Assembly (NCBI RefSeq): GCF_026625045.1
Contig: NZ_CP113089.1
Span: forward strand, 1,860,001 to 1,924,000
Direction: 5' to 3'
Length of the DNA: 64,000 nt
Origin: Microcella daejeonensis
Lineage (GTDB): Bacteria; Actinomycetota; Actinomycetes; Actinomycetales; Microbacteriaceae
Notes under the pieces: model-generated
The model's database searches: none
Told to the model about the DNA's origin: nothing
The model's input: the letters and a program-made list of their open reading frames with translations, nothing else
Shown here: piece by piece, positions 13,636 through 25,260 of the stretch
Layout of the letters: every line of letters begins with the position of its first letter
Position numbering within the stretch: the first letter of the stretch is position 1
Program-made: the position numbers and the translations under genes

Positions 13636-16188
13636 GTGAAGGCGATCCGCCGATTCACCGTCCGAACCGTTCTGCCCGAGCGCCTCGCCGCTGTCGGCGA
13701 CCTGGCCGCGAACCTGCGCTGGTCGTGGCACGAGCCGACCCGTCGACTCTTCGAGCGCGTCGACCCCGTGCGGTGGGAGGCCCTCGGCCACGACCCCATC
13801 GCCCTCCTCGGCGAGGTCGACCCCGCCCGCCTCGAGCAGCTCGCCGCCGATGAGCACTTCGTCGCCGACGCCGAGGCACTGCGCGCCGATCTGCACGCCT
13901 ACCTCGCCGAGCCCCGGTGGTACCAGGGGCTCGAGAACGCTCCGGCGCGCATCGCCTACTTCTCGCCCGAGTTCGGCATCGCGAGCGCGATCCCGCAGTA
14001 CTCGGGCGGTCTGGGCATCCTCGCCGGCGACCACCTGAAGAGCGCATCCGATCTCGGCGTGCCCCTCATCGGCGTCGGCCTCTTCTACCGGGCCGGCTAC
14101 TTCCGCCAGGCGATCGACCGCGACGGCTGGCAGAAGGAGACCTACCCCCTCATCGACCCCGACGGCCTGCCCATGCAGATGCTGCGCGAGCACGACGGCA
14201 CCGCCGTGCGCATCACCCTCGCGCTGCCGGGCGGCGACGCCATGCACGCCCGGGTCTGGCAGATGGCCGTCGGCCGGGTCGTGCTGCTGCTGCTCGACAC
14301 CGACATCCCCGAGAACTCCGACGCCCTGCGCGGCGTCACCGATCGCCTCTACGGCGGCGGCGGCGAGCACCGCCTGCTGCAGGAGCTGCTGCTCGGCATC
14401 GGCGGAGTGCGCGCCATCAAGAGCTACCTCGAGGTCTCGGGAACGCCCGCGCCCGAGGTCTTCCACACCAACGAGGGCCACGCCGGATTCCTCGGGCTCG
14501 AGCGCATCAGCGACCTCATCGCCGAGGGCCTGAGCTTCGACGAGGCGCTGCAGGTCGTGCGCGCCGGAACCCTCTTCACCACGCACACCCCTGTTCCCGC
14601 CGGCATCGACCGCTTCGAGAACGGGCTCATCGAGCGCTACTTCTCCACCGGTCTGCTGCCCGGCGTCGACGTGCACGACGTGCTCGGGCTCGGCCGCGAG
14701 GACTACGACGGCGGCGACCCGGGCGTCTTCAACATGGCGGTCATGGGCCTGCGCCTCGCGCAGCGCGCCAACGGCGTCTCGCAGCTGCACGGCGACGTCT
14801 CGCGGGGCATGTTCGGCCAGCTGTGGCCGGGCTTCGACCAGGCCGACGTGCCGATCACCTCCGTCACGAACGGCGTGCACGCCCCCACCTGGACCGACCC
14901 GCTCATGGTGCGCCTCGTGCACGAGAAGCTCGGCACCTACGAGACGAGCACCGCCGACTGGGCGAGCGACGCGATCAGCGACGAGGAGCTGTGGTTCGTG
15001 CGCCGCTCGATGCGCGAGCAGCTCGTCACCGACGCGCGGGCCCGCGTAGCGGCCGCCTGGAGCGAGGAGAACGGCTCCGTCGCCCCGCCGAGCTGGATGA
15101 ACGAGCTGCTCGACCCCGACGTGCTCACCATCGGCTTCGCGCGGCGCGTGCCGACCTACAAGCGGCTCACCCTCATGCTGCACGACGAGGCCCGCCTGCG
15201 CGCCCTGCTCACCGACCCCGAGCGCCCCGTGCAGCTCGTGATCGCCGGCAAGTCGCACCCCGCCGACGACGGCGGCAAGGCCCTCATCCAGAAGCTCGTG
15301 CAGTTCTCGCAGGACCCGGAGCTGCGCCGCCGCATCGTGTTCCTGCCGAACTACGACATCGCCATGGCGCGCCTGCTCTACCCGGGCACCGACATCTGGC
15401 TGAACAACCCGCTGCGCCCGCTCGAGGCCTGCGGCACCTCCGGCATGAAGGCGGCCCTCAACGGCTCGCTCAACCTCTCCATCCTCGACGGCTGGTGGAA
15501 CGAGTACTACGACGCCGAGAACGGCTGGGCCATCCCCACTGCCGACTCCGCGGGCGACGACGCCGAGCGCGACATGCTCGAGGCGAACGCCATGTACGAC
15601 CTCATCGAGCACCAGATCGCGCCGCGCTTCTACGACCGCGACGCCGACGGCCTGCCGCGCCGCTGGCTGCAGAACATCCGCCACACGCTGTCGACGCTCT
15701 CGCCCGAGCTCTCGGCCGACCGCATGGTCGCCGAGTACGTGCAGCGGCTCTACATGCCGGCGGCGGATGCCCAGCGCACGATCATCGCCGACCACCACGC
15801 CCCCGCCCGCGAGCTCTCGGCCTGGAAGTCGCGCGTGCGCGCCGGCTGGTCGTCGCTCTCCGTCGCGCACGTGGAGTCGGGCGGCGTCGAGTCGCCGCAG
15901 CTCGGCGACGCGCTGCACGTGCGGGCGCACATCGACCTCGGCTCGCTCGAGCCCGACGACGTGAGCGTCGACGTGGTCTTCGGCCGCGCCGACGAGGGCG
16001 ACGACCTCGCCGACGTGCGCACGCAGGCCCTGCAGCTCGTGAGCCACGAGATCGGGCAGCCGGCGACCTTCGCGGGCACCGTGCCGCTGGAGCGCTCCGG
16101 CTCGTTCGGGTACAACGTGCGGGTGACCCCGCGGCACGCCCTGCTCGCGAACCCGGCCGAGCTCGGACTCGTCGCGGTCGCCCACTAG
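13636..16188 (+). CDS. glgP: Alpha-glucan phosphorylase
   Basis: The 850-residue GT35 enzyme releases glucose-1-phosphate from the non-reducing ends of alpha-glucan. The N-terminal 110 residues (LRWSWHEPTRRLFERVDP) are the DUF3417 module found in the actinobacterial phosphorylase branch. The catalytic core carries SPEFGIASAIPQYSGGLGIL, GFARRVPTYKR and GTSGMKAALNG, where Lys605 should hold pyridoxal phosphate. The C-terminal 100 residues are a beta-rich extension. The start is GTG after a purine-rich GAGGAG at about 13620. It faces away from glgE-glgB, so synthesis and breakdown genes share one control region. Confidence 0.95.
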   Translation: MKAIRRFTVRTVLPERLAAVGDLAANLRWSWHEPTRRLFERVDPVRWEALGHDPIALLGEVDPARLEQLAADEHFVADAEALRADLHAYLAEPRWYQGLENAPARIAYFSPEFGIASAIPQYSGGLGILAGDHLKSASDLGVPLIGVGLFYRAGYFRQAIDRDGWQKETYPLIDPDGLPMQMLREHDGTAVRITLALPGGDAMHARVWQMAVGRVVLLLLDTDIPENSDALRGVTDRLYGGGGEHRLLQELLLGIGGVRAIKSYLEVSGTPAPEVFHTNEGHAGFLGLERISDLIAEGLSFDEALQVVRAGTLFTTHTPVPAGIDRFENGLIERYFSTGLLPGVDVHDVLGLGREDYDGGDPGVFNMAVMGLRLAQRANGVSQLHGDVSRGMFGQLWPGFDQADVPITSVTNGVHAPTWTDPLMVRLVHEKLGTYETSTADWASDAISDEELWFVRRSMREQLVTDARARVAAAWSEENGSVAPPSWMNELLDPDVLTIGFARRVPTYKRLTLMLHDEARLRALLTDPERPVQLVIAGKSHPADDGGKALIQKLVQFSQDPELRRRIVFLPNYDIAMARLLYPGTDIWLNNPLRPLEACGTSGMKAALNGSLNLSILDGWWNEYYDAENGWAIPTADSAGDDAERDMLEANAMYDLIEHQIAPRFYDRDADGLPRRWLQNIRHTLSTLSPELSADRMVAEYVQRLYMPAADAQRTIIADHHAPARELSAWKSRVRAGWSSLSVAHVESGGVESPQLGDALHVRAHIDLGSLEPDDVSVDVVFGRADEGDDLADVRTQALQLVSHEIGQPATFAGTVPLERSGSFGYNVRVTPRHALLANPAELGLVAVAH

Positions 16189-16265
16189 CGCCGGGCATCC
16201 CGCCGGGGCGTGCCGGGCCCGGTCTGCCCGCGCGGCCGCCGGATCGCGGGTCCGCTGGCAGAGTC

Positions 16266-16352
16266 GGCACGAATTCAGGCCGTGCTCGGCGCGCCGTCGA
16301 CGCGCGGTGCTCGACGCGCCTGTCCGCGGGCAGCGATGCCTGAATTCGTGCC
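16266..16352. repeat. 87-bp palindromic element, copy A
   Basis: Terminal inverted repeats GGCACGAATTCAGGC (16266-16280) and GCCTGAATTCGTGCC (16338-16352) pair perfectly over 15 bp. The 57-bp interior carries its own stem (GGCGCG at 16288-16293 with CGCGCC at 16315-16320, plus TCGA/TCGA). The element lies in the convergent gap between glgP and the DUF559 gene, 77 nt after the glgP stop and 53 nt after the nuclease stop. The rest of this 217-bp gap shows nothing notable. It may act as a terminator, but its fixed length and sequence shared with copies B and C point to a repeated element. Confidence 0.85.
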
Positions 16353-16405
16353 AACTGCACGGGCCGGATCGTCGATCGTGAGGGCTCGCGAACCCGGCGG
16401 TCCTG

Positions 16406-17254
16406 TTACCGGAGGTGGTCGCCGCGGGAGACCGCGGCCAGCACGGCGGCGACGACCCGGTCGAGGTGGTTCACGATCTGGTCGTAGTCGAAGCGCAGGC
16501 AGCGGTAGCCGGCGAGGCTGAGGTCGAGGTCGCGACGCCGGTCGGCTGCGCGGCCCGAGGCGATGTCGTGGAACTCGCGGCTGTCGATCTCGACGACGAG
16601 CCGCTCACCGATGAGGAAGTCGACGCGACCGACCCCCGGGATCAGCTTCTGCCGGGAGACCGACGGCAGCAGCTGCCGGATCGCGAGCCAGAACATCGTC
16701 TCGGTGCCGCTCTCGCAGACCCCGTCGATGCCGGCGGTTCCGGCGGGATGCCCGGCGCGGCGCAGTGCGTCCCGCTCGAGCGGCGCATGGTGCAGCGCCG
16801 AGTCGAGCGAGGCCAGGTACCAGGGCTCCGGCACGCACCGCCGGTAGTCGGAGAGGGCGTCGCTCACCGTCGCCACGAGTCGCTCGTGCTCATCGGGTCG
16901 GCGCGTCCAATGCACGATGGCGGTGCTGCCCGCCGACCGCCGACGACGGCTGTCGCGCTCGTCGCGCAACCGCGAGCCCGGATGCACCACACGCGCATGG
17001 ATCTCCGGGTGGTCGAGGGCCCACACCCCGTGCTGCCGGAGCGCATGACCGCACGTCAGGGACCCCCCGACCCTGACGGCCATGAGGATCACGGGGTCGA
17101 GGTCCGGGCGCACGAACCACCCCTGACGAGCACGTCGAAGAACGCCCCCCTCGATGAGGCGCTCGCGTGCGCGGCGCCCGAACCCCTCGTCGATCAGCTC
17201 GTGCGTGGCGATCGCCCCGCCCCGGGCATCCAGGAGTCGGTGGACATGGTGCAT
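16406..17254 (-). CDS. DUF559/Vsr-like endonuclease with AbiEi-type N-terminal domain
   Basis: The protein has 282 residues. The N-terminal part (MHHVHRLLDARGGAIATHEL) is the winged-helix module found in AbiEi-like antitoxins, ending in LRRARQGWFVRPD. The C-terminal part (about the last 100 residues) is a Vsr/DUF559 PD-(D/E)XK-type domain with GRVDFLIGERLVVEIDSREF, RRRDLDLSLAGYRCLRFDYD and a final helix. The Asp and the ExD pair are the likely metal ligands. I chose ATG 17254, since the family begins there. An upstream in-frame GTG at 17365 would fall inside copy B of the 87-bp element. The gene is bracketed by copies A and B, and no partner toxin gene is next to it. Confidence 0.75.
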   Translation of the reverse strand: MHHVHRLLDARGGAIATHELIDEGFGRRARERLIEGGVLRRARQGWFVRPDLDPVILMAVRVGGSLTCGHALRQHGVWALDHPEIHARVVHPGSRLRDERDSRRRRSAGSTAIVHWTRRPDEHERLVATVSDALSDYRRCVPEPWYLASLDSALHHAPLERDALRRAGHPAGTAGIDGVCESGTETMFWLAIRQLLPSVSRQKLIPGVGRVDFLIGERLVVEIDSREFHDIASGRAADRRRDLDLSLAGYRCLRFDYDQIVNHLDRVVAAVLAAVSRGDHLR

Positions 17255-17360
17255 GGGCGCAGGGTCGCGGACGACGCGAGCCGGGTACCGAGCACCCCGG
17301 CTTCCGGGGGATACCTCCGCTTCGATCACCACTGGGGAGGAGGGTTCGGGTCGCCTGTCC

Positions 17361-17447
17361 GACACAAATTCAGGCGAGCCCCGGCGTGGCGGGACCGATG
17401 AGTGGGCAACACGCCGGATGCGGCCCGCGCATGCCTGAATTTGTGCC
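17361..17447. repeat. 87-bp palindromic element, copy B
   Basis: Terminal repeats GACACAAATTCAGGC (17361-17375) and GCCTGAATTTGTGCC (17433-17447) pair with one mismatch. Relative to copy A both arms changed together (C-G to A-T at the sixth base), a compensatory change. The inner stem is CGGCGTG (17382-17388) with CACGCCG (17410-17416). It lies between the ybaK stop and the nuclease gene. Confidence 0.85.
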
Positions 17448-17518
17448 AGAGCGCGGTCGCCGGTGCCGGGCGGAGCCGGGTGGTGCCGTGCGCCCGGAGC
17501 GCGGCCCCGCAGCGCGGC

Positions 17519-18013
17519 TCAGCGGGCGATGTCGGCGAGCCGCGCGCCCGTGACGGCGACGAGGTCGGCGGGCGCGAGCTCGAGGTCGAAGCCGCGCCGG
17601 CCGCCCGAGACGAGCACGGTGGGCCAGAGCAGGGCCGACTCGTCGAGCCAGGTGGGCAGCGCCGTGCGCTGGCCGATGGGCGAGATGCCGCCGACGACGT
17701 ATCCGGTGCGGCGCTCGGCGAGGGCCGGGTCGGCCATGGCGGCGCGGCGACCGCCGGCGGCCGCGGCCAGCGACTTGAGGTCGAGCAGGCACGAGACGGG
17801 CACGATGCCGACCACGAGCGAGCCGTCGACGTCGGCGAGGAGGGTCTTGAAGACGCGATCCGGCTCGACGCCGAGGGCGGCGGCGGCCTCGAGGCCGTAG
17901 CTCGCCGCGCCCGGCTCGTGCGTGTAGGGGCGGGGCGTGTACGGGATGCCCGCCGACGCCAGCGCGACGGTCGCCGGGGTCGCGGGGCCGGCCGAGGGGC
18001 GCGGCTTAGGCAT
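17519..18013 (-). CDS. ybaK: YbaK/EbsC-family Cys-tRNA(Pro) deacylase
   Basis: The 164-residue cytoplasmic editing enzyme would hydrolyse cysteine mis-attached to tRNA-Pro. It contains the family pattern VFKTLLADVDGSLVVGIVPV with a conserved Lys, and GYVVGGISPIGQR, the Gly-rich loop that binds the tRNA 3' end. The start ATG at 18013 overlaps the last 8 nt of glgX, so it is probably translated from the glgX transcript. An upstream ATG at 18037 is less likely. Coupling of a tRNA-editing gene with a debranching enzyme is probably incidental. Confidence 0.88.
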   Translation of the reverse strand: MPKPRPSAGPATPATVALASAGIPYTPRPYTHEPGAASYGLEAAAALGVEPDRVFKTLLADVDGSLVVGIVPVSCLLDLKSLAAAAGGRRAAMADPALAERRTGYVVGGISPIGQRTALPTWLDESALLWPTVLVSGGRRGFDLELAPADLVAVTGARLADIAR

Positions 18014-20204
18014 TCCGGTCGGGCTCGGGCCGGGCATCCATCGCCGGGTCGTCGGAGGGCGCGGCGACCCCCTCGTCCGAATCGTCAGGCGACGGAGCGG
18101 ACGTAGCCGACGACGCGGCCGGCGCCGAGGGCGGTGAGGCCGGCGACGGCACCTGGTCGCCGTGCGCGCGGAACAGCAGCATCGACGTCGGCCCGACGGT
18201 GAGCATCTCGCCGGGCTCGTGCTCGAGCGCGAGCTGCGAGATGTCGTCGTGCGAGCTGTCCCACAGCAGGGTGTAGCCGGTGACGCCGACGTGGGCGGGC
18301 AGGCGCACCGAGGTCGGCTCCTCGAGCCCGTGCACGACGAGCAGGATGCGGTTGAAGTGCTCGAACTCGGGGGTGGAGGCGGCGAGGTACTGCAGGGTGC
18401 GCTCGGCGGGCGAGTCCCAGTCGTCCATCGTCATGGCCCGGCCGTCCTTGTTGTACCAGTCCATCTGGGTGGCGCTCGGGATGGTCTCGCCCCAGCGCCC
18501 GTACCGCACGGGTCGCAGCGCCGGGTTGTCGCACCGCAGCTGCAGCAGGCGCCGGGTGACCCGCAACAGGTCCTCCTGCCAGCCGGAGCGGTCCCACGAC
18601 AGCCACGTGAGCTCGCTGTCGTGGCAGTACGCGTTGTTGTTGCCGCGCTGGCTGCGGCCGAACTCGTCGCCCGCGGTGATCATGGGCATGCCGGCGCTGA
18701 GCAGCAGGGTGCCGAGCAGGTTGCGCATGGCCCGGCGGCGGTCGGCGGTGATGACGGGGTCGTCGGTGGGGCCCTCGAGGCCGAAGTTGTACGAGCGGTT
18801 GTTGTCGGTGCCGTCGCGGTTGTCCTCGCCGTTGCCGATGTTGTGCTTCGAGTCGTAGGCGGTGAGGTCGGCGAGGGTGAAGCCGTCGTGGGCGGTGACG
18901 AAGTTGACGCTCGCGAGGGGCCCGCGGTCGGCGGCGAAGACGTGCGCGCTGCCGGTCATGCGGCGGGCGAGCGAGCCGATGCCCTCGGCGGCGGCGCCGT
19001 GGCGGCGCGAGGCGGCGGTGTCGCTGAGCCAGAAGGTGCGCGCGCGGTCGCGGAATCCGTCGTTCCACTCCCGGTAGCCGTCGGGGAAGTTGCCGACCTG
19101 CCAGCCGCCCAGCCCGACGTCCCACGGCTCGGCGATCATGAGCGAGTCGGCGAGCACGGGGTCGGCGAGGATGGCGGCGAGGAGCGGGTGCTCCGGGTCG
19201 AAGTGGGCGCGGGCATCCCGACCGATCGTCGCCATGAGGTCGAAGCGGAACCCGTCGATCTGCACCTCCTCGGCCCAGTAGCGCAGCGAGTCGAGCAGCA
19301 GGCGCTGGGCGGCGGAAAGCGAGAAGTCGACGGTGTTGCCGCACCCGGTGGTGTCGATGTACTCGCCCTCGCGGGTCTGGCGGTAGTACGAGGCGGCGTC
19401 GATGCCGCGCAGGCTCGAGGTCGGCCCGGTCGGCCCCTCCTCGGCGGTGTGGTTGTAGACGACGTCCATGACGACCTGGATGCCCGCCTCATGCAGCAGG
19501 CGCACCATGCCCTTGACCTCCCGCAGCACGGCCCCGGTTCCGCCGTTCTGGGCGCCGCGCGTGGCGTACTGCGCGTGCGGCGTGAAGAAGTTGAGGGTGT
19601 TGTAGCCCCAGTAATTGGTGAGGCCCTGCTTGAGCAGCCGCTGCTCGCTGATGCTCTGGTGGATGGGCAGCAGCTCGACGGTCGTGACCCCGAGATCCTT
19701 CAGGTAGGCGATCGTCGTGGGGTGCGCGAGGCCCGCGTAGGTGCCCCTCAGCTCGTCGGGCATGTCGGGGGCGAGCTTGGTGAGGCCCTTGACGTGCGCC
19801 TCGTAGAGCACGACGTGGTCGAGCGGGATGCGCGGCTTCTGCACCCCGCCCCAGTCGAAGTCGTCGTGCTGCACGTAGCCGCGCCAGTCGCCTCCGGTGG
19901 TGCGGGCGAGCCCGCGGGCGTAGGGGTCGATGAGGTGCCGCTCGGGATCGAAGGCGTGCGTCGGCCCGCTCGGCCCGTCGACCCGCACGGAGTAGCGGGT
20001 TCCCGGCACGAGGGCGGCGTGCTCGACCTGCCAGACGCCGTGCTCGTCGCGGGCCATGGGCACGCGCTCGGCCATCCACGCCGGGTCGTCGGGGCTGAAC
20101 AGGCACAGCTCCATGGCGGTCGCGTGCTCGCTCCACACCCGCAGCCGCCCGCCCCGCGCAGTCGCGGTCACTCCGAGGTGACCCAGCGGGTCGGTCGTCG
20201 CCAT
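18006..20204 (-). CDS. glgX: Glycogen debranching enzyme (GlgX/TreX type)
   Basis: The 732-residue enzyme hydrolyses alpha-1,6 branches, usually in glucan trimmed by the phosphorylase. The order is a CBM48-like N-terminal domain (1-130, with LRVWSEHATAMELCLF), the GH13_11 barrel with VVMDVVYNHTAEEGP, IDGFRFDLMATIG (nucleophile Asp), MIAEPWDVG (acid Glu) and FVTAHDGFTLADL, and a C-terminal beta domain. The tail after residue 700 is Ser/Pro/Asp-rich. The ATG is at 20204 with a -10-like TACTCT only 6 nt upstream, which suggests a leaderless mRNA. Together with glgP this gives breakdown of stored glucan. Confidence 0.94.
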   Translation of the reverse strand: MATTDPLGHLGVTATARGGRLRVWSEHATAMELCLFSPDDPAWMAERVPMARDEHGVWQVEHAALVPGTRYSVRVDGPSGPTHAFDPERHLIDPYARGLARTTGGDWRGYVQHDDFDWGGVQKPRIPLDHVVLYEAHVKGLTKLAPDMPDELRGTYAGLAHPTTIAYLKDLGVTTVELLPIHQSISEQRLLKQGLTNYWGYNTLNFFTPHAQYATRGAQNGGTGAVLREVKGMVRLLHEAGIQVVMDVVYNHTAEEGPTGPTSSLRGIDAASYYRQTREGEYIDTTGCGNTVDFSLSAAQRLLLDSLRYWAEEVQIDGFRFDLMATIGRDARAHFDPEHPLLAAILADPVLADSLMIAEPWDVGLGGWQVGNFPDGYREWNDGFRDRARTFWLSDTAASRRHGAAAEGIGSLARRMTGSAHVFAADRGPLASVNFVTAHDGFTLADLTAYDSKHNIGNGEDNRDGTDNNRSYNFGLEGPTDDPVITADRRRAMRNLLGTLLLSAGMPMITAGDEFGRSQRGNNNAYCHDSELTWLSWDRSGWQEDLLRVTRRLLQLRCDNPALRPVRYGRWGETIPSATQMDWYNKDGRAMTMDDWDSPAERTLQYLAASTPEFEHFNRILLVVHGLEEPTSVRLPAHVGVTGYTLLWDSSHDDISQLALEHEPGEMLTVGPTSMLLFRAHGDQVPSPASPPSAPAASSATSAPSPDDSDEGVAAPSDDPAMDARPEPDRNA

Positions 20205-20210
20205 GGATTT

Positions 20211-20216
20211 AGAGTA
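20211..20216 (-). promoter_or_regulatory. Candidate -10 element of glgX (leaderless)
   Basis: TACTCT on the minus strand is separated from the ATG by 6 nt, so RNA would begin at or next to the start codon. No ribosome binding site fits in that space. Confidence 0.5.
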
Positions 20217-20272
20217 GGTCAGCGCGACCGTGCGTCCGCCGCGCCTCGCGTCGCGTCGTTCGAAGGGGGTGG

Positions 20273-21490
20273 ATGCCGATGCCGGTGTACCTCGACCACG
20301 CCGCCACGTCGCCCATGCCCGCCTCGGTGCGCGCGGCGTACCTGCACGCTCTCGAGACCGCGGGCAACCCGAGCTCGATCCATTCCGCGGGCCAGTCCGC
20401 CCGGGCCATGCTCGATGACGCGCGCAGCCGCATCGCGGCGACCCTCGGCGTCGATGCCGTCGAGCTGACCTTCACGGGCGGCGGCACCGAGGCCGTGAAC
20501 CTCGCCGTCAAGGGACTCTTCTGGCGGGCCCGGCAGGCCGACCCGCGCCGCACCCGCCTGCTCGTGCCGCGTGCCGAGCACCACGCCACCCTCGACGCGG
20601 TCGAGTGGCTCGTCGCGCACGAGGGCGCCTCGGTGACGTGGCTCGAGGTCGACGCGGAGGGGGTGCTGCTGATCGACGGCCTGGGCGGGGTGGCGGCGGC
20701 GCTCGCCGGTGCGGGAGACGAGCCCGCCGATGACGTCGCCCTCATCACCATGCTCGCCGCCAACAACGAGGTCGGCTCGGTGCAGCCCGTCGCCGAGGTC
20801 GCGGCGCTCGCCGCGGCCGCCGGGGTGCCGCTGCACGTCGACGCGATCGCCGCCTACGGGCAGATCGACCTCGCGCCCCTGCCGCCGGGGGTCGGGGCCC
20901 TCTCGATCTCCGCCCACAAGGTGGGCGGCCCGGTGGGCGTGGGCGCGCTCGTGCTGCGGCGAGGAACCGAGGTCGTGCCGCTGCTGCACGGGGGAGCGCA
21001 GCAGCGCGGGCGGTCGGGAACGATGGATGCTCCCGGCGCGTGGGCCTTCGCCGTGGCGGCCGAGGCGGCGCACGCCGAGCTCGCGGCGAGGGCGGCGCAC
21101 AAGCGCGCGCTGCGCGATCGGCTCGAGGCGGGCATCCGCGCCCACGTGCCGCAGGCCGTGCTGCACGGCACCGGCGCCGCGCACCGCCTGCCCGGAACCG
21201 TGCATCTCACCGTGCCAGGCTGCGAGGGCGATTCGCTGCTGTTCCTGCTCGATCAGGCGGGCTTCGCCGTCTCGACCGGATCGGCCTGCCAGGCGGGGGT
21301 TCCCGAGCCCTCCCACGTGCTGCTCGCCATGGGGCTGAGCGCGGCGGATGCCCGAGGCGCGCTGCGCGTCACCCTCGGCCCCGACACCACGGCCGACGAG
21401 ATCGACGCGCTGCTGGACGCTCTGCCGGCCGCGGTCGCCCGTGCCGAGGCCGCGGGGCTCGCGGCGCGTACGCCGATGCTCGGGCGGTAG
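20273..21490 (+). CDS. iscS: Cysteine desulfurase (NifS/IscS family)
   Basis: The 405-residue PLP enzyme takes sulfur from cysteine as a persulfide. The sequence opens with VYLDHAATSPMP. The PLP lysine is Lys216 in SISAHKVGG and the sulfur-carrying cysteine is Cys339 in STGSACQAG. The start at 20273 follows a purine-rich GAAGGGGG. The next gene, mnmA, begins 30 nt after the stop, so the sulfur donor and its tRNA-thiolating acceptor enzyme sit side by side. Other uses of the persulfide (iron-sulfur clusters) are possible. Confidence 0.93.
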   Translation: MPMPVYLDHAATSPMPASVRAAYLHALETAGNPSSIHSAGQSARAMLDDARSRIAATLGVDAVELTFTGGGTEAVNLAVKGLFWRARQADPRRTRLLVPRAEHHATLDAVEWLVAHEGASVTWLEVDAEGVLLIDGLGGVAAALAGAGDEPADDVALITMLAANNEVGSVQPVAEVAALAAAAGVPLHVDAIAAYGQIDLAPLPPGVGALSISAHKVGGPVGVGALVLRRGTEVVPLLHGGAQQRGRSGTMDAPGAWAFAVAAEAAHAELAARAAHKRALRDRLEAGIRAHVPQAVLHGTGAAHRLPGTVHLTVPGCEGDSLLFLLDQAGFAVSTGSACQAGVPEPSHVLLAMGLSAADARGALRVTLGPDTTADEIDALLDALPAAVARAEAAGLAARTPMLGR

Positions 21491-21508
21491 CAGGGGGACG
21501 GGGCCGCG

Positions 21509-21514
21509 TACCCT
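21509..21514 (+). promoter_or_regulatory. Candidate -10 element of mnmA
   Basis: TACCCT lies 6 nt before the mnmA ATG. The intervening GGAGGC could also serve as a ribosome binding site if transcription comes from iscS, so two modes of expression are possible. Confidence 0.4.
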
Positions 21515-21520
21515 GGAGGC

Positions 21521-22696
21521 ATGCGGGTTCTGGCAGCGATGAGCGGCGGCGTCGACAGCGCCGTCGCGGCGGCGCGCGCGGTCGACGCCGGGCACGACGT
21601 GGTCGGGGTGCACCTCGCGCTGAGCCGCATGCCGGGCACGCTGCGCACCGGCAGCCGCGGCTGCTGCACCATCGAGGACAGCCTCGATGCGCGCCGCGCG
21701 GCCGAGAGGCTGGGCATCCCCTTCTACGTCTGGGACTTCTCGGAGCGCTTCGCCGACGACGTCGTCGGCGACTTCATCGCCGAGTACGCGGCCGGCCGCA
21801 CGCCCAACCCCTGCATGCGCTGCAACGAGCGCATCAAGTTCGCCGCCGTGCTCGAGAAGGCGCTCGCGCTCGGCTTCGACGCCGTCGCGACCGGGCACTA
21901 CGCCCACATCGTCACCGACGCGGCCGGCAACCGCGAGCTGCACCGGGCCTCCGATGAGGCGAAGGATCAGTCGTACGTTCTCGGCGTGCTGACGAGCGAG
22001 CAGCTGGCGCACGCGATGTTCCCGCTCGGCACGACGCCGTCGAAGGCCGTCGTGCGGGCCGAGGCCGCGTCGCGCGGCTTGACCGTGGCGCAGAAGCCCG
22101 ACAGCCACGACATCTGCTTCATCCCCGACGGCGACACCCGTGGCTGGCTGGCCGAGCGCATCGAGCCGCAGCAGGGCGCGATCGTCGACCGCTCCGGCGA
22201 GACGCTCGGCAGCCACGACGGGGCGACGAGCTACACGGTCGGCCAGCGCAAGGGGCTCGGCATCGGCCGGCCCGCCCCCGACGGACGCCCGCGCTTCGTG
22301 CTCGAGGTGCGCCCGCGCACGAACGAGGTCGTCGTCGGCCCGCGCGAGGCGCTCGCGGTGCGCGAGCTCGCGGGGGCCCGCTACAGCTGGGCGGGGCTCG
22401 ACCCGGTGGCGAGCGGCGTCACGACCGCCGAGGTCGATGGCGGCACCTCGTGGTTCGCGTGCGACGTGCAGGTGCGCGCGCACGGCGAGCCGGTGCCGGC
22501 GCGGGCGCGGCTGGCGGCCGGTTCGGCCTCGGCCCCTGAGCTGGTCGTCGAGATGGATGCCCCGCTCCTGGGCGTCGCGCCCGGCCAGACCGCGGTGCTC
22601 TACGTCGGCACCCGCGTGGTGGGCCAGTGCACGATCGACCGCACGACCTCCGCCGTGCCGGTGGATGCTGCGGCCGAGCCCGCTCGGGCATCCTGA
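21521..22696 (+). CDS. mnmA: tRNA 2-thiouridylase
   Basis: The 391-residue enzyme adds sulfur to uridine 34 of tRNAs for Glu, Gln and Lys. The N-terminal PP-loop is SGGVDS (residues 9-14). The two catalytic cysteines are Cys98 in NPCMRCN and Cys199 in [23 protein letters not shown] marks the central domain and the C-terminal beta-barrel completes the usual length. It lies downstream of the cysteine desulfurase that would provide the persulfide. Copy C of the 87-bp element follows 65 nt after the stop. Confidence 0.96.
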
Positions 22697-22698
22697 CC

Positions 22699-22714
22699 CC
22701 TGCGCGCCCGCCGT
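22699..22714 (+). repeat. 16-bp direct repeat left of element C
   Basis: CCTGCGCGCCCGCCGT occurs here and again exactly at 22881-22896, on either side of copy C of the 87-bp element. The distances to the element differ (47 and 32 nt), so it is not a simple target-site duplication. Confidence 0.6.
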
Positions 22715-22761
22715 CGGGGTGTCTCGCCGCCCGCCGTCTGAGTCTCTCCCCGCCCGTGGCC

Positions 22762-22848
22762 GGCACAAATTCAGGCAAAGGCGCACAGGCGGCGGCGTGT
22801 CGCGGCATCGGGTCGTCCGACACGCCGGCCCGTGCCTGAATTCGTGCC
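22762..22848. repeat. 87-bp palindromic element, copy C
   Basis: Terminal repeats GGCACAAATTCAGGC (22762-22776) and GCCTGAATTCGTGCC (22834-22848) pair with a single A/C mismatch. The inner stem is perfect over 10 bp: CGGCGTGTCG (22793-22802) with CGACACGCCG (22818-22827). It lies between mnmA and ligA, both on the plus strand. The remaining sequence of that 242-bp gap is the direct repeat and the ligA promoter. Confidence 0.85.
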
Positions 22849-22880
22849 AGGGGTGCGGGCGAGCGGTGCGGCCGAGCGGC

Positions 22881-22896
22881 CCTGCGCGCCCGCCGT
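22881..22896 (+). repeat. 16-bp direct repeat right of element C
   Basis: This is the second copy of CCTGCGCGCCCGCCGT, identical to 22699-22714. Confidence 0.6.
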
Positions 22897-22926
22897 GAGG
22901 CCCCGGAGACTGTCGGGGGTCGCTCC

Positions 22927-25260
<2,334 letters not shown>

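Follow-up and report, generated by a model that had tools for sequence, protein, structure and literature searches.

In Microcella daejeonensis, whose genome is a single contig of 2.72 Mb, a nuclease gene lies between two copies of a short palindromic element, forming a unit of 1182 bp (element A, nuclease gene, element B; positions 16266–17447). Positions given for this unit and its surroundings refer to the window, the whole 64,000-nucleotide stretch that was analysed. The unit is set between glgP, the alpha-glucan phosphorylase gene (13636–16188, plus strand), and ybaK (17519–18037, minus strand), and NCBIfam assigns the neighbouring genes to alpha-glucan phosphorylase, YbaK, GlgX, cysteine desulfurase, MnmA and LigA. 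The nuclease gene (16406–17254, minus strand) encodes 282 amino acids from the ATG at 17254; its reading frame is open back to a GTG at 17365, and homologues of about 282 amino acids begin at the same methionine. Element A (87 bp; 16266–16352, minus strand; arms 16266–16280 and 16338–16352) and element B (87 bp; 17361–17447, minus strand; arms 17361–17375 and 17433–17447) score 74.6 and 76.0 bits with the covariance model described below, which places both on the minus strand and hence in direct, not inverted, orientation. These coordinates and the 15-bp arms confirm the first-pass annotation, which had described copies A and B on both sides of the nuclease gene in a 1182-bp unit. The third copy in the window, solo element C (22762–22848, plus strand; 84.9 bits), lies between mnmA and ligA, and its place is also filled, with the other arm type, in a second Microcella species (G137; the genome of the window is G000).

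The nuclease protein has two parts. Residues 1–177 (16724–17254, minus strand) form an AbiEi-antitoxin-like N-terminal part, probably the one that reads the arms, and residues 179–282 (16409–16720, minus strand) form a DUF559 domain of the I-Bth0305I/Vsr fold. The profile PF04480 (DUF559) matches with an E-value of 2.9e-8, and structure alignments match AbiEi (6y8q) and I-Bth0305I/Vsr, with other PD-(D/E)XK folds, TnsA and Hjc, appearing at lower Z. The AbiEi-like part is present both by the 6y8q fold match and by PADLOC (AbiEi, E 8e-4), and the catalytic fold is of the I-Bth0305I type. Glu181, Glu185, Asp212, Glu222, Asp224 and His229 are invariant in an alignment of 25 sequences. The profile matches are of the DUF559, MTES_1575 and AbiEi types, with no Y1 HUH transposase, in line with the earlier proposal of a nuclease with a different fold in place of a Y1 tyrosine enzyme. 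No AbiEii nucleotidyltransferase toxin adjoins the gene, whose neighbours are glgP and ybaK, and orphan DUF559/AbiEi genes occur in 26/26 Microcella genomes searched. The gene was also considered as mobile cargo. Phage cargo was rejected as the nuclease has no match among 50,697 phage records, and plasmid cargo as it has just two matches, both in Tsukamurella and at 30–32% identity, among 72,556 plasmid records.

The element is built of 15-bp outer inverted arms, GGCACRAATTCAGGC, that stand 57 bp apart and give a length of 87 bp in all. Its head is GGCAC, and an inner inverted repeat, CGGCGTGTCG/CGACACGCCG, sits off-centre, so that the element has a direction. The strict arm pattern occurs eight times in the 2.72-Mb genome (reversed-pattern control, 0), and a mismatch-tolerant scan of the examined stretches of this genome gave 16 elements of 86–87 bp, from which the covariance model was built. 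This model finds 27 places in the examined stretches of G000, 24 of them at 42 bits or above, and 25 places in those of G137, 23 of them at 42 bits or above. Surveying other genomes for the element had been proposed at the outset. The strict pattern is present in 1 of 199 genomes drawn from the family, namely its own. In each of 26 genus genomes the covariance model was applied to 150 first-look candidates out of several thousand; it gave strong matches in G000 and G137 only, weak matches in five (28.8–36.6 bits) and none in 19. One of the weak matches, in G203, lies 37 bp from a nuclease gene of 45% identity.

The position of the arm that is either purine or pyrimidine (columns 10/87) varies independently on the two sides, and double-stranded sequence reading therefore fits better than pairing. 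An RNA hairpin as the selected thing was rejected, with two-sided change in only 1 of 23 pairs, as was a known RNA element, since nothing in window positions 16000–23000 reached an Rfam gathering threshold. Crude gene calls place 22 of the 27 elements between genes; five are called inside genes, and several of those calls look false. This intergenic placement would suit a repressor-like regulator, with the flanking palindromes as operator and terminator, the solo copies as regulon or decoys, and an AbiEi-like part that binds DNA beside a nuclease domain of secondary importance. In its favour, AbiEi antitoxins bind DNA and regulate their own expression, and the conservation of single arms is what binding sites would show. 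We nevertheless regard a regulator as unlikely: the spaces between convergent genes, where no operator would be expected, hold 10/27 elements (38 of 146 neighbour pairs are convergent in the background), autoregulation needs no downstream copy with the same arms, and all 25 aligned sequences keep the acidic residues and the histidine of the nuclease fold unchanged.

Whether the bracket extends beyond this locus was judged from the best 80 of 118 related loci found by alignment search. These are the nearest relatives in named organisms, so the bracketed fraction says nothing on DUF559 genes at large. The bracket score takes the best inverted repeat upstream and downstream of a gene, with four arms agreeing and gaps within 3 bp, and has a maximum of 72; the cut-off of 60 was picked after the scores were seen. 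The M. daejeonensis locus reaches 68 out of 72, whereas the highest value among 85 randomly chosen window positions is 58. Scores of at least 60 were reached at 54/80 loci and at 0/510 gene-sized control positions in the same loci (control maximum, 58). When only loci with whole flanks are counted, 53/74 are bracketed by inverted repeats that match in arms and spacing, which answers favourably the earlier question of whether DUF559 genes of this clade have elements nearby; the other 21 score below 60, four of them at 56–59. Positive loci include Microbacterium, Rhodoglobus, Lacisediminihabitans, Agromyces, Gordonia and Arcanobacterium, and all eight Mycobacterium/Mycolicibacterium loci are negative. 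Element sizes run from roughly 50 to 110 bp across loci, and the flanking copies look inverted at some of the others (for example L157 and L089). The only one of 263 other predicted genes, in the related loci and the window, to score at least 60 is itself beside such a nuclease. At L113, a CAAX-protease-like gene of the Rce1 family (L113:3993–4754) adjoins the nuclease between palindrome copies 2 and 3, as if carried along with nuclease and palindromes.

A genus set, which overlaps in genes with the 80 loci, passes the bracket test on DNA flanks at 21/30 loci. A further control, in which the gap rule was dropped and upstream flanks were paired with downstream flanks from other genus loci in 150 draws, gave a mean of 52.7, a 95th percentile of 63.6 and a maximum of 72; randomly paired genus flanks thus sometimes match real brackets in score, and we take the upper tail to be loci that share an arm family, such as L042, L045 and L046. 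As the comparison of these loci shows, the bracket is a property common to most of this nuclease clade.

Empty sites in close relatives, a comparison likewise suggested at the outset, were found. The nuclease adjoins ybaK in 7 of 23 genus genomes (G000, G137, G220, G202, G074, G212 and G199), and in 10 of the 16 genomes without it glgP and ybaK lie about 24–60 bp apart, with no nuclease and no palindrome between them, a gap too short for a palindrome of such kind. Of the remaining six, two carry some 1.3 kb of different DNA at this place (G201 and G207; L255 and L258), without a match to the nuclease, one has 451 bp, two are without glgP in view and one meets a contig end; the two junctions of about 1.3 kb and the one of 451 bp hold short-gap inverted repeats of their own. 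In a tree of the ybaK–glgX region the seven nuclease-bearing genomes fall in three places. Based on this spread and on presence and absence at the site, nuclease and palindromes seem to come and go together. The nuclease itself may have a single origin, with which a tree of 28 nuclease proteins is compatible. In the draft assembly of G199, the ybaK-side copy lies in two pieces (G199:C1:173800–174560; L252) and is therefore either broken or misread.

Movement of the solo elements appears to be rare, since most mapped sites are common to G000 and G137. No clean recent insertion was found among them; the one case of presence and absence is the solo element at 932327, which is missing from the same tRNA-Gly locus in G137 without a sharp boundary. 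In G224, two elements with identical spacers were considered as a recent copy event and rejected, as they lie in a 5-kb stretch that is identical and inverted on two contigs (C1:811900–816900 and C3:517300–522400); this is an assembly or segmental duplication and thus not a transposition. No target-site duplication was seen by eye in the 6 bp on each side of 16 elements, which makes a classical insertion sequence or MITE less likely. The observation also bears on the idea that an unrelated transposon family supplied the palindromes as its MITE-like ends, with the nuclease gene sitting between two of them by chance as a passenger. Terminal inverted repeats, a fixed length of 86–87 bp and dispersed copies are what such ends would look like, and the CAAX protease gene of L113 is likewise bracketed by copies. 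The arrangement recurs, however, round the nuclease family with different arms in each clade, and a passenger gene would not track arm type; we consider chance bracketing of this kind very improbable.

The arms and gaps are indeed different between clades, examples being GAAATGACGGAG with a gap of 54, AACTCTCACGTA with a gap of 39 and TTTCGGGCAACC with a gap of 42. Loci with more similar proteins also have more similar arms, with a Spearman coefficient of 0.187 across 69 distinct loci, a value reached in 0/1000 permutations. Arm similarity of at least 0.7 was seen for 62% of 16 pairs at 70–95% protein identity, for 15% of 61 pairs at 60–70%, and for 0–1% of 1868 pairs below 40%. Because N- and C-terminal identity track the arm equally (partial correlations 0.10 and 0.11), the part of the protein that sets the arm is not separable by this correlation. 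The comparison shows arms that are specific to nuclease lineages. Inside the element, the word CGGCGTGTC is enriched 58-fold in spacers, and 8/69 loci combine a shared 8-letter core with arms that differ widely. The common inner word CGGCGTGTC/GACACGCCG with differing outer arms was noted at L093, L108, L147, L155, L165, L029, L038 and L054, which belong to Microcella and Microbacterium. It is as if the inner word were a second, more slowly changing contact.

Dispersed copies follow the nuclease as well. We counted exact arm patterns of other families, flanking copies included. The first family has 8, 3 and 4 exact copies in three cognate genomes, of which 6, 1 and 3 are non-flanking (two of the last three are one stretch present twice in the assembly), and 0 in 13 other genomes. 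The second has 3, 4 and 1 (non-flanking 2, 3 and 1) against 0 in 15 others; one of these 15, G237, was expected to be cognate and yet holds no exact copy of its near relatives' pattern. A third pattern gave 5 copies, 3 of them non-flanking, against 0 in 14 others. The exact Gordonia pattern gave 1 and 2 copies against 0 in 13 others, with one non-flanking copy in total, so that dispersal is hardly shown there. By this comparison, solo copies were found in genomes that have the matching nuclease, and the other genomes searched gave none.

G000 and G137 are 86–96% identical over most aligned stretches round the elements (about 90% DNA identity), and most mappable elements occupy the same places in both. 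Among 12 orthologous pairs, 23/24 G000 arms end in TTCAGGC and 24/24 G137 arms end in TGCAGGA; one G000 element carries one arm of each type. These pairs are all the mappable GGCACRAATTCAGGC-family elements of 16, with L024:10517 mapped by its right flank only. Left out of the count are L018, L023 (absent in G137), L024:10315 and L025, together with L184/L176, whose arm families differ; of the 19 G000 places mapped to G137, L018, L023, L024:10319–10607, L025 and L187 lack two-sided mapping. Orthologous spacers are 0.746 identical, against 0.670 under permuted pairing (p 1e-4) and still below the flanks, which suggests that in several cases the element was kept in place while its arms changed. 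Five further orthologous pairs have the same arm family in both species. A stretch of about 4.2 kb in G000 (G000:C1:1176666–1180927) is unaligned at the matching place in G137 and ends beside the element at 1180818.

The nuclease between elements A and B is 81% identical in the two species, with dS values of 1.02 for residues 1–100, 0.61 for residues 101–175 and 0.27 for residues 176–282, whereas six neighbouring genes have dS values of 0.06–0.18, far under that of the N-terminal part. Exchange of the nuclease gene, mainly its AbiEi-like half, with a diverged allele would explain this best, we infer. The comparison thus shows a concerted difference in the arms, accompanied by exceptional divergence in the N-terminal half of the nuclease. 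A concerted change at 12 sites with partly orthologous spacers would also fit selection at each site, as in an addiction or host-guard system in which a genotoxic nuclease is held back or directed by the palindromes and the loss or mismatch of a site is penalised, so that arms are matched by selection and not by conversion. Addiction has been raised for RAYTs (PMC3116915, in the portion cited here). Because strong selection would be needed on each of 24 arms separately, we think such a system improbable, and favour joint change of nuclease and arms through cutting and repair.

Other arm types persist beside the current one. Three elements of the M. daejeonensis genome have arms of the G137 type (G000:C1:172604, 598345 and 246857; L184, L185 and L186); two of them are decayed, and they look like leftovers of an older specificity. 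A third arm family, TGCCCGCGATCAGGA, is common to both species and is carried by at least six elements in G000 (L019:3881, L021:3930, L024:4060, L025:4135, L027:4236 and L188:3064), frequently no more than about 220 bp from a current-family copy, and by elements at L182:3098, L172:3200 and L173:3058 in G137. Its arm word was not found in the stretches that surround five further DUF559 genes in the two genomes (L202, L203, L204, L207 and L208), and the family looks like a relic of an earlier enzyme.

Taken together, we propose that the nuclease and the palindromes form one two-part system, in which the nuclease would recognise the arms and drive their spread or conversion, in a manner like that of RAYT and REP although unrelated to it; judging from the sequence comparisons, we give this a probability of about 0.7. 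Recognition of the arms by the nuclease is strongly inferred, and the nicking or cutting of the element, with copying or conversion driven by repair, is a putative further step. In the mechanism that we envisage, the AbiEi-like DNA-binding part and the I-Bth0305I/Vsr-type nuclease would together recognise the outer arms, in the simplest form as a dimer whose two subunits would each hold one arm. Dimers on targets of nearly 60 bp are reported for EDxHD enzymes (PMC3943268). The enzyme would act both on the two copies beside its own gene and on the solo copies elsewhere in the genome, nicking or cutting the element, and repair from another copy would then convert or copy it. Such homing-like drive would keep the arms matched to the resident enzyme and may occasionally seed new sites.

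By analogy, the nearest known thing in behaviour would be the RAYT (TnpA_REP) gene with its REPs or REPINs. PMC2817692 and PMC3116915 describe a RAYT gene with REPs at its flanks that evolves jointly with them and faster than the genes around it, and the former describes REPs as 20–40 bp long with a GT(A/G)G head. In both systems the palindromes on either side of the gene have further copies across the genome, enzyme and palindrome co-diverge, and the gene evolves faster than its neighbours. The enzymes are unrelated, however: RAYT is a Y1 HUH transposase, whereas the enzyme here joins an AbiEi-like part to a nuclease of the DUF559/Vsr fold. The palindromes also differ in design, with 87 bp, a GGCAC head and clade-specific arms in place of the short REPs and their GT(A/G)G head, and the flanking copies, inverted in RAYT loci, are direct here. 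The system is thus not a member of the RAYT/REP class. The first-pass annotation had suggested a RAYT-like arrangement served by a different enzyme, with a functional link that it offered as conjecture, and the comparisons mostly support it: the bracket, the dispersal, the empty sites and the co-divergence of arms and nuclease agree with it, whereas the direct flanking copies at this locus and a third arm family found without a nuclease do not.

The catalytic fold is shared with EDxHD homing endonucleases such as I-Bth0305I. Those lie inside an intron, whereas the gene here is free-standing and bracketed by its presumed targets, which are also dispersed, and its product carries an AbiEi-like part. 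AbiEi antitoxins of type IV toxin-antitoxin systems differ in that here there is no adjoining AbiEii toxin, and there is a fusion to a nuclease domain and a palindrome bracket. Vsr and Vsr-like DUF559 proteins, for example Caulobacter VsrA, share the nuclease fold and the DUF559 domain. For VsrA a link to the mismatch repair of methylated cytosine motifs is described, and the part of its description considered here mentions no palindrome bracket. A search of the literature on DUF559 with palindromes or repeats and on EDxHD/Vsr homing found no such system by title and start of abstract, with most subscription journals outside its scope.

A broader possibility, which we put forward tentatively and hold to be distinctly less probable than the partnership itself, is that this locus represents a widespread, undescribed actinobacterial class of nuclease–palindrome systems, convergent with RAYT/REP, in which a fusion of AbiEi-like and EDxHD-type parts rewrites its dispersed arms in place: a change in the recognition half would be followed by cut-and-copy repair that converts the arms genome-wide, while the sites stay put. 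The two Microcella species would then amount to a natural experiment, with joint change of the N-terminal half and of about a dozen sites. If the proposed partnership is correct, the RAYT/REP kind of association between an enzyme gene and a population of small palindromes arose at least twice, with unrelated enzymes. Not only would the so far unexplained orphan DUF559/AbiEi genes gain a role and a directly testable substrate, but the genome would write the recognition sequence of the enzyme beside its gene, and the family would offer nucleases that recognise long sites.
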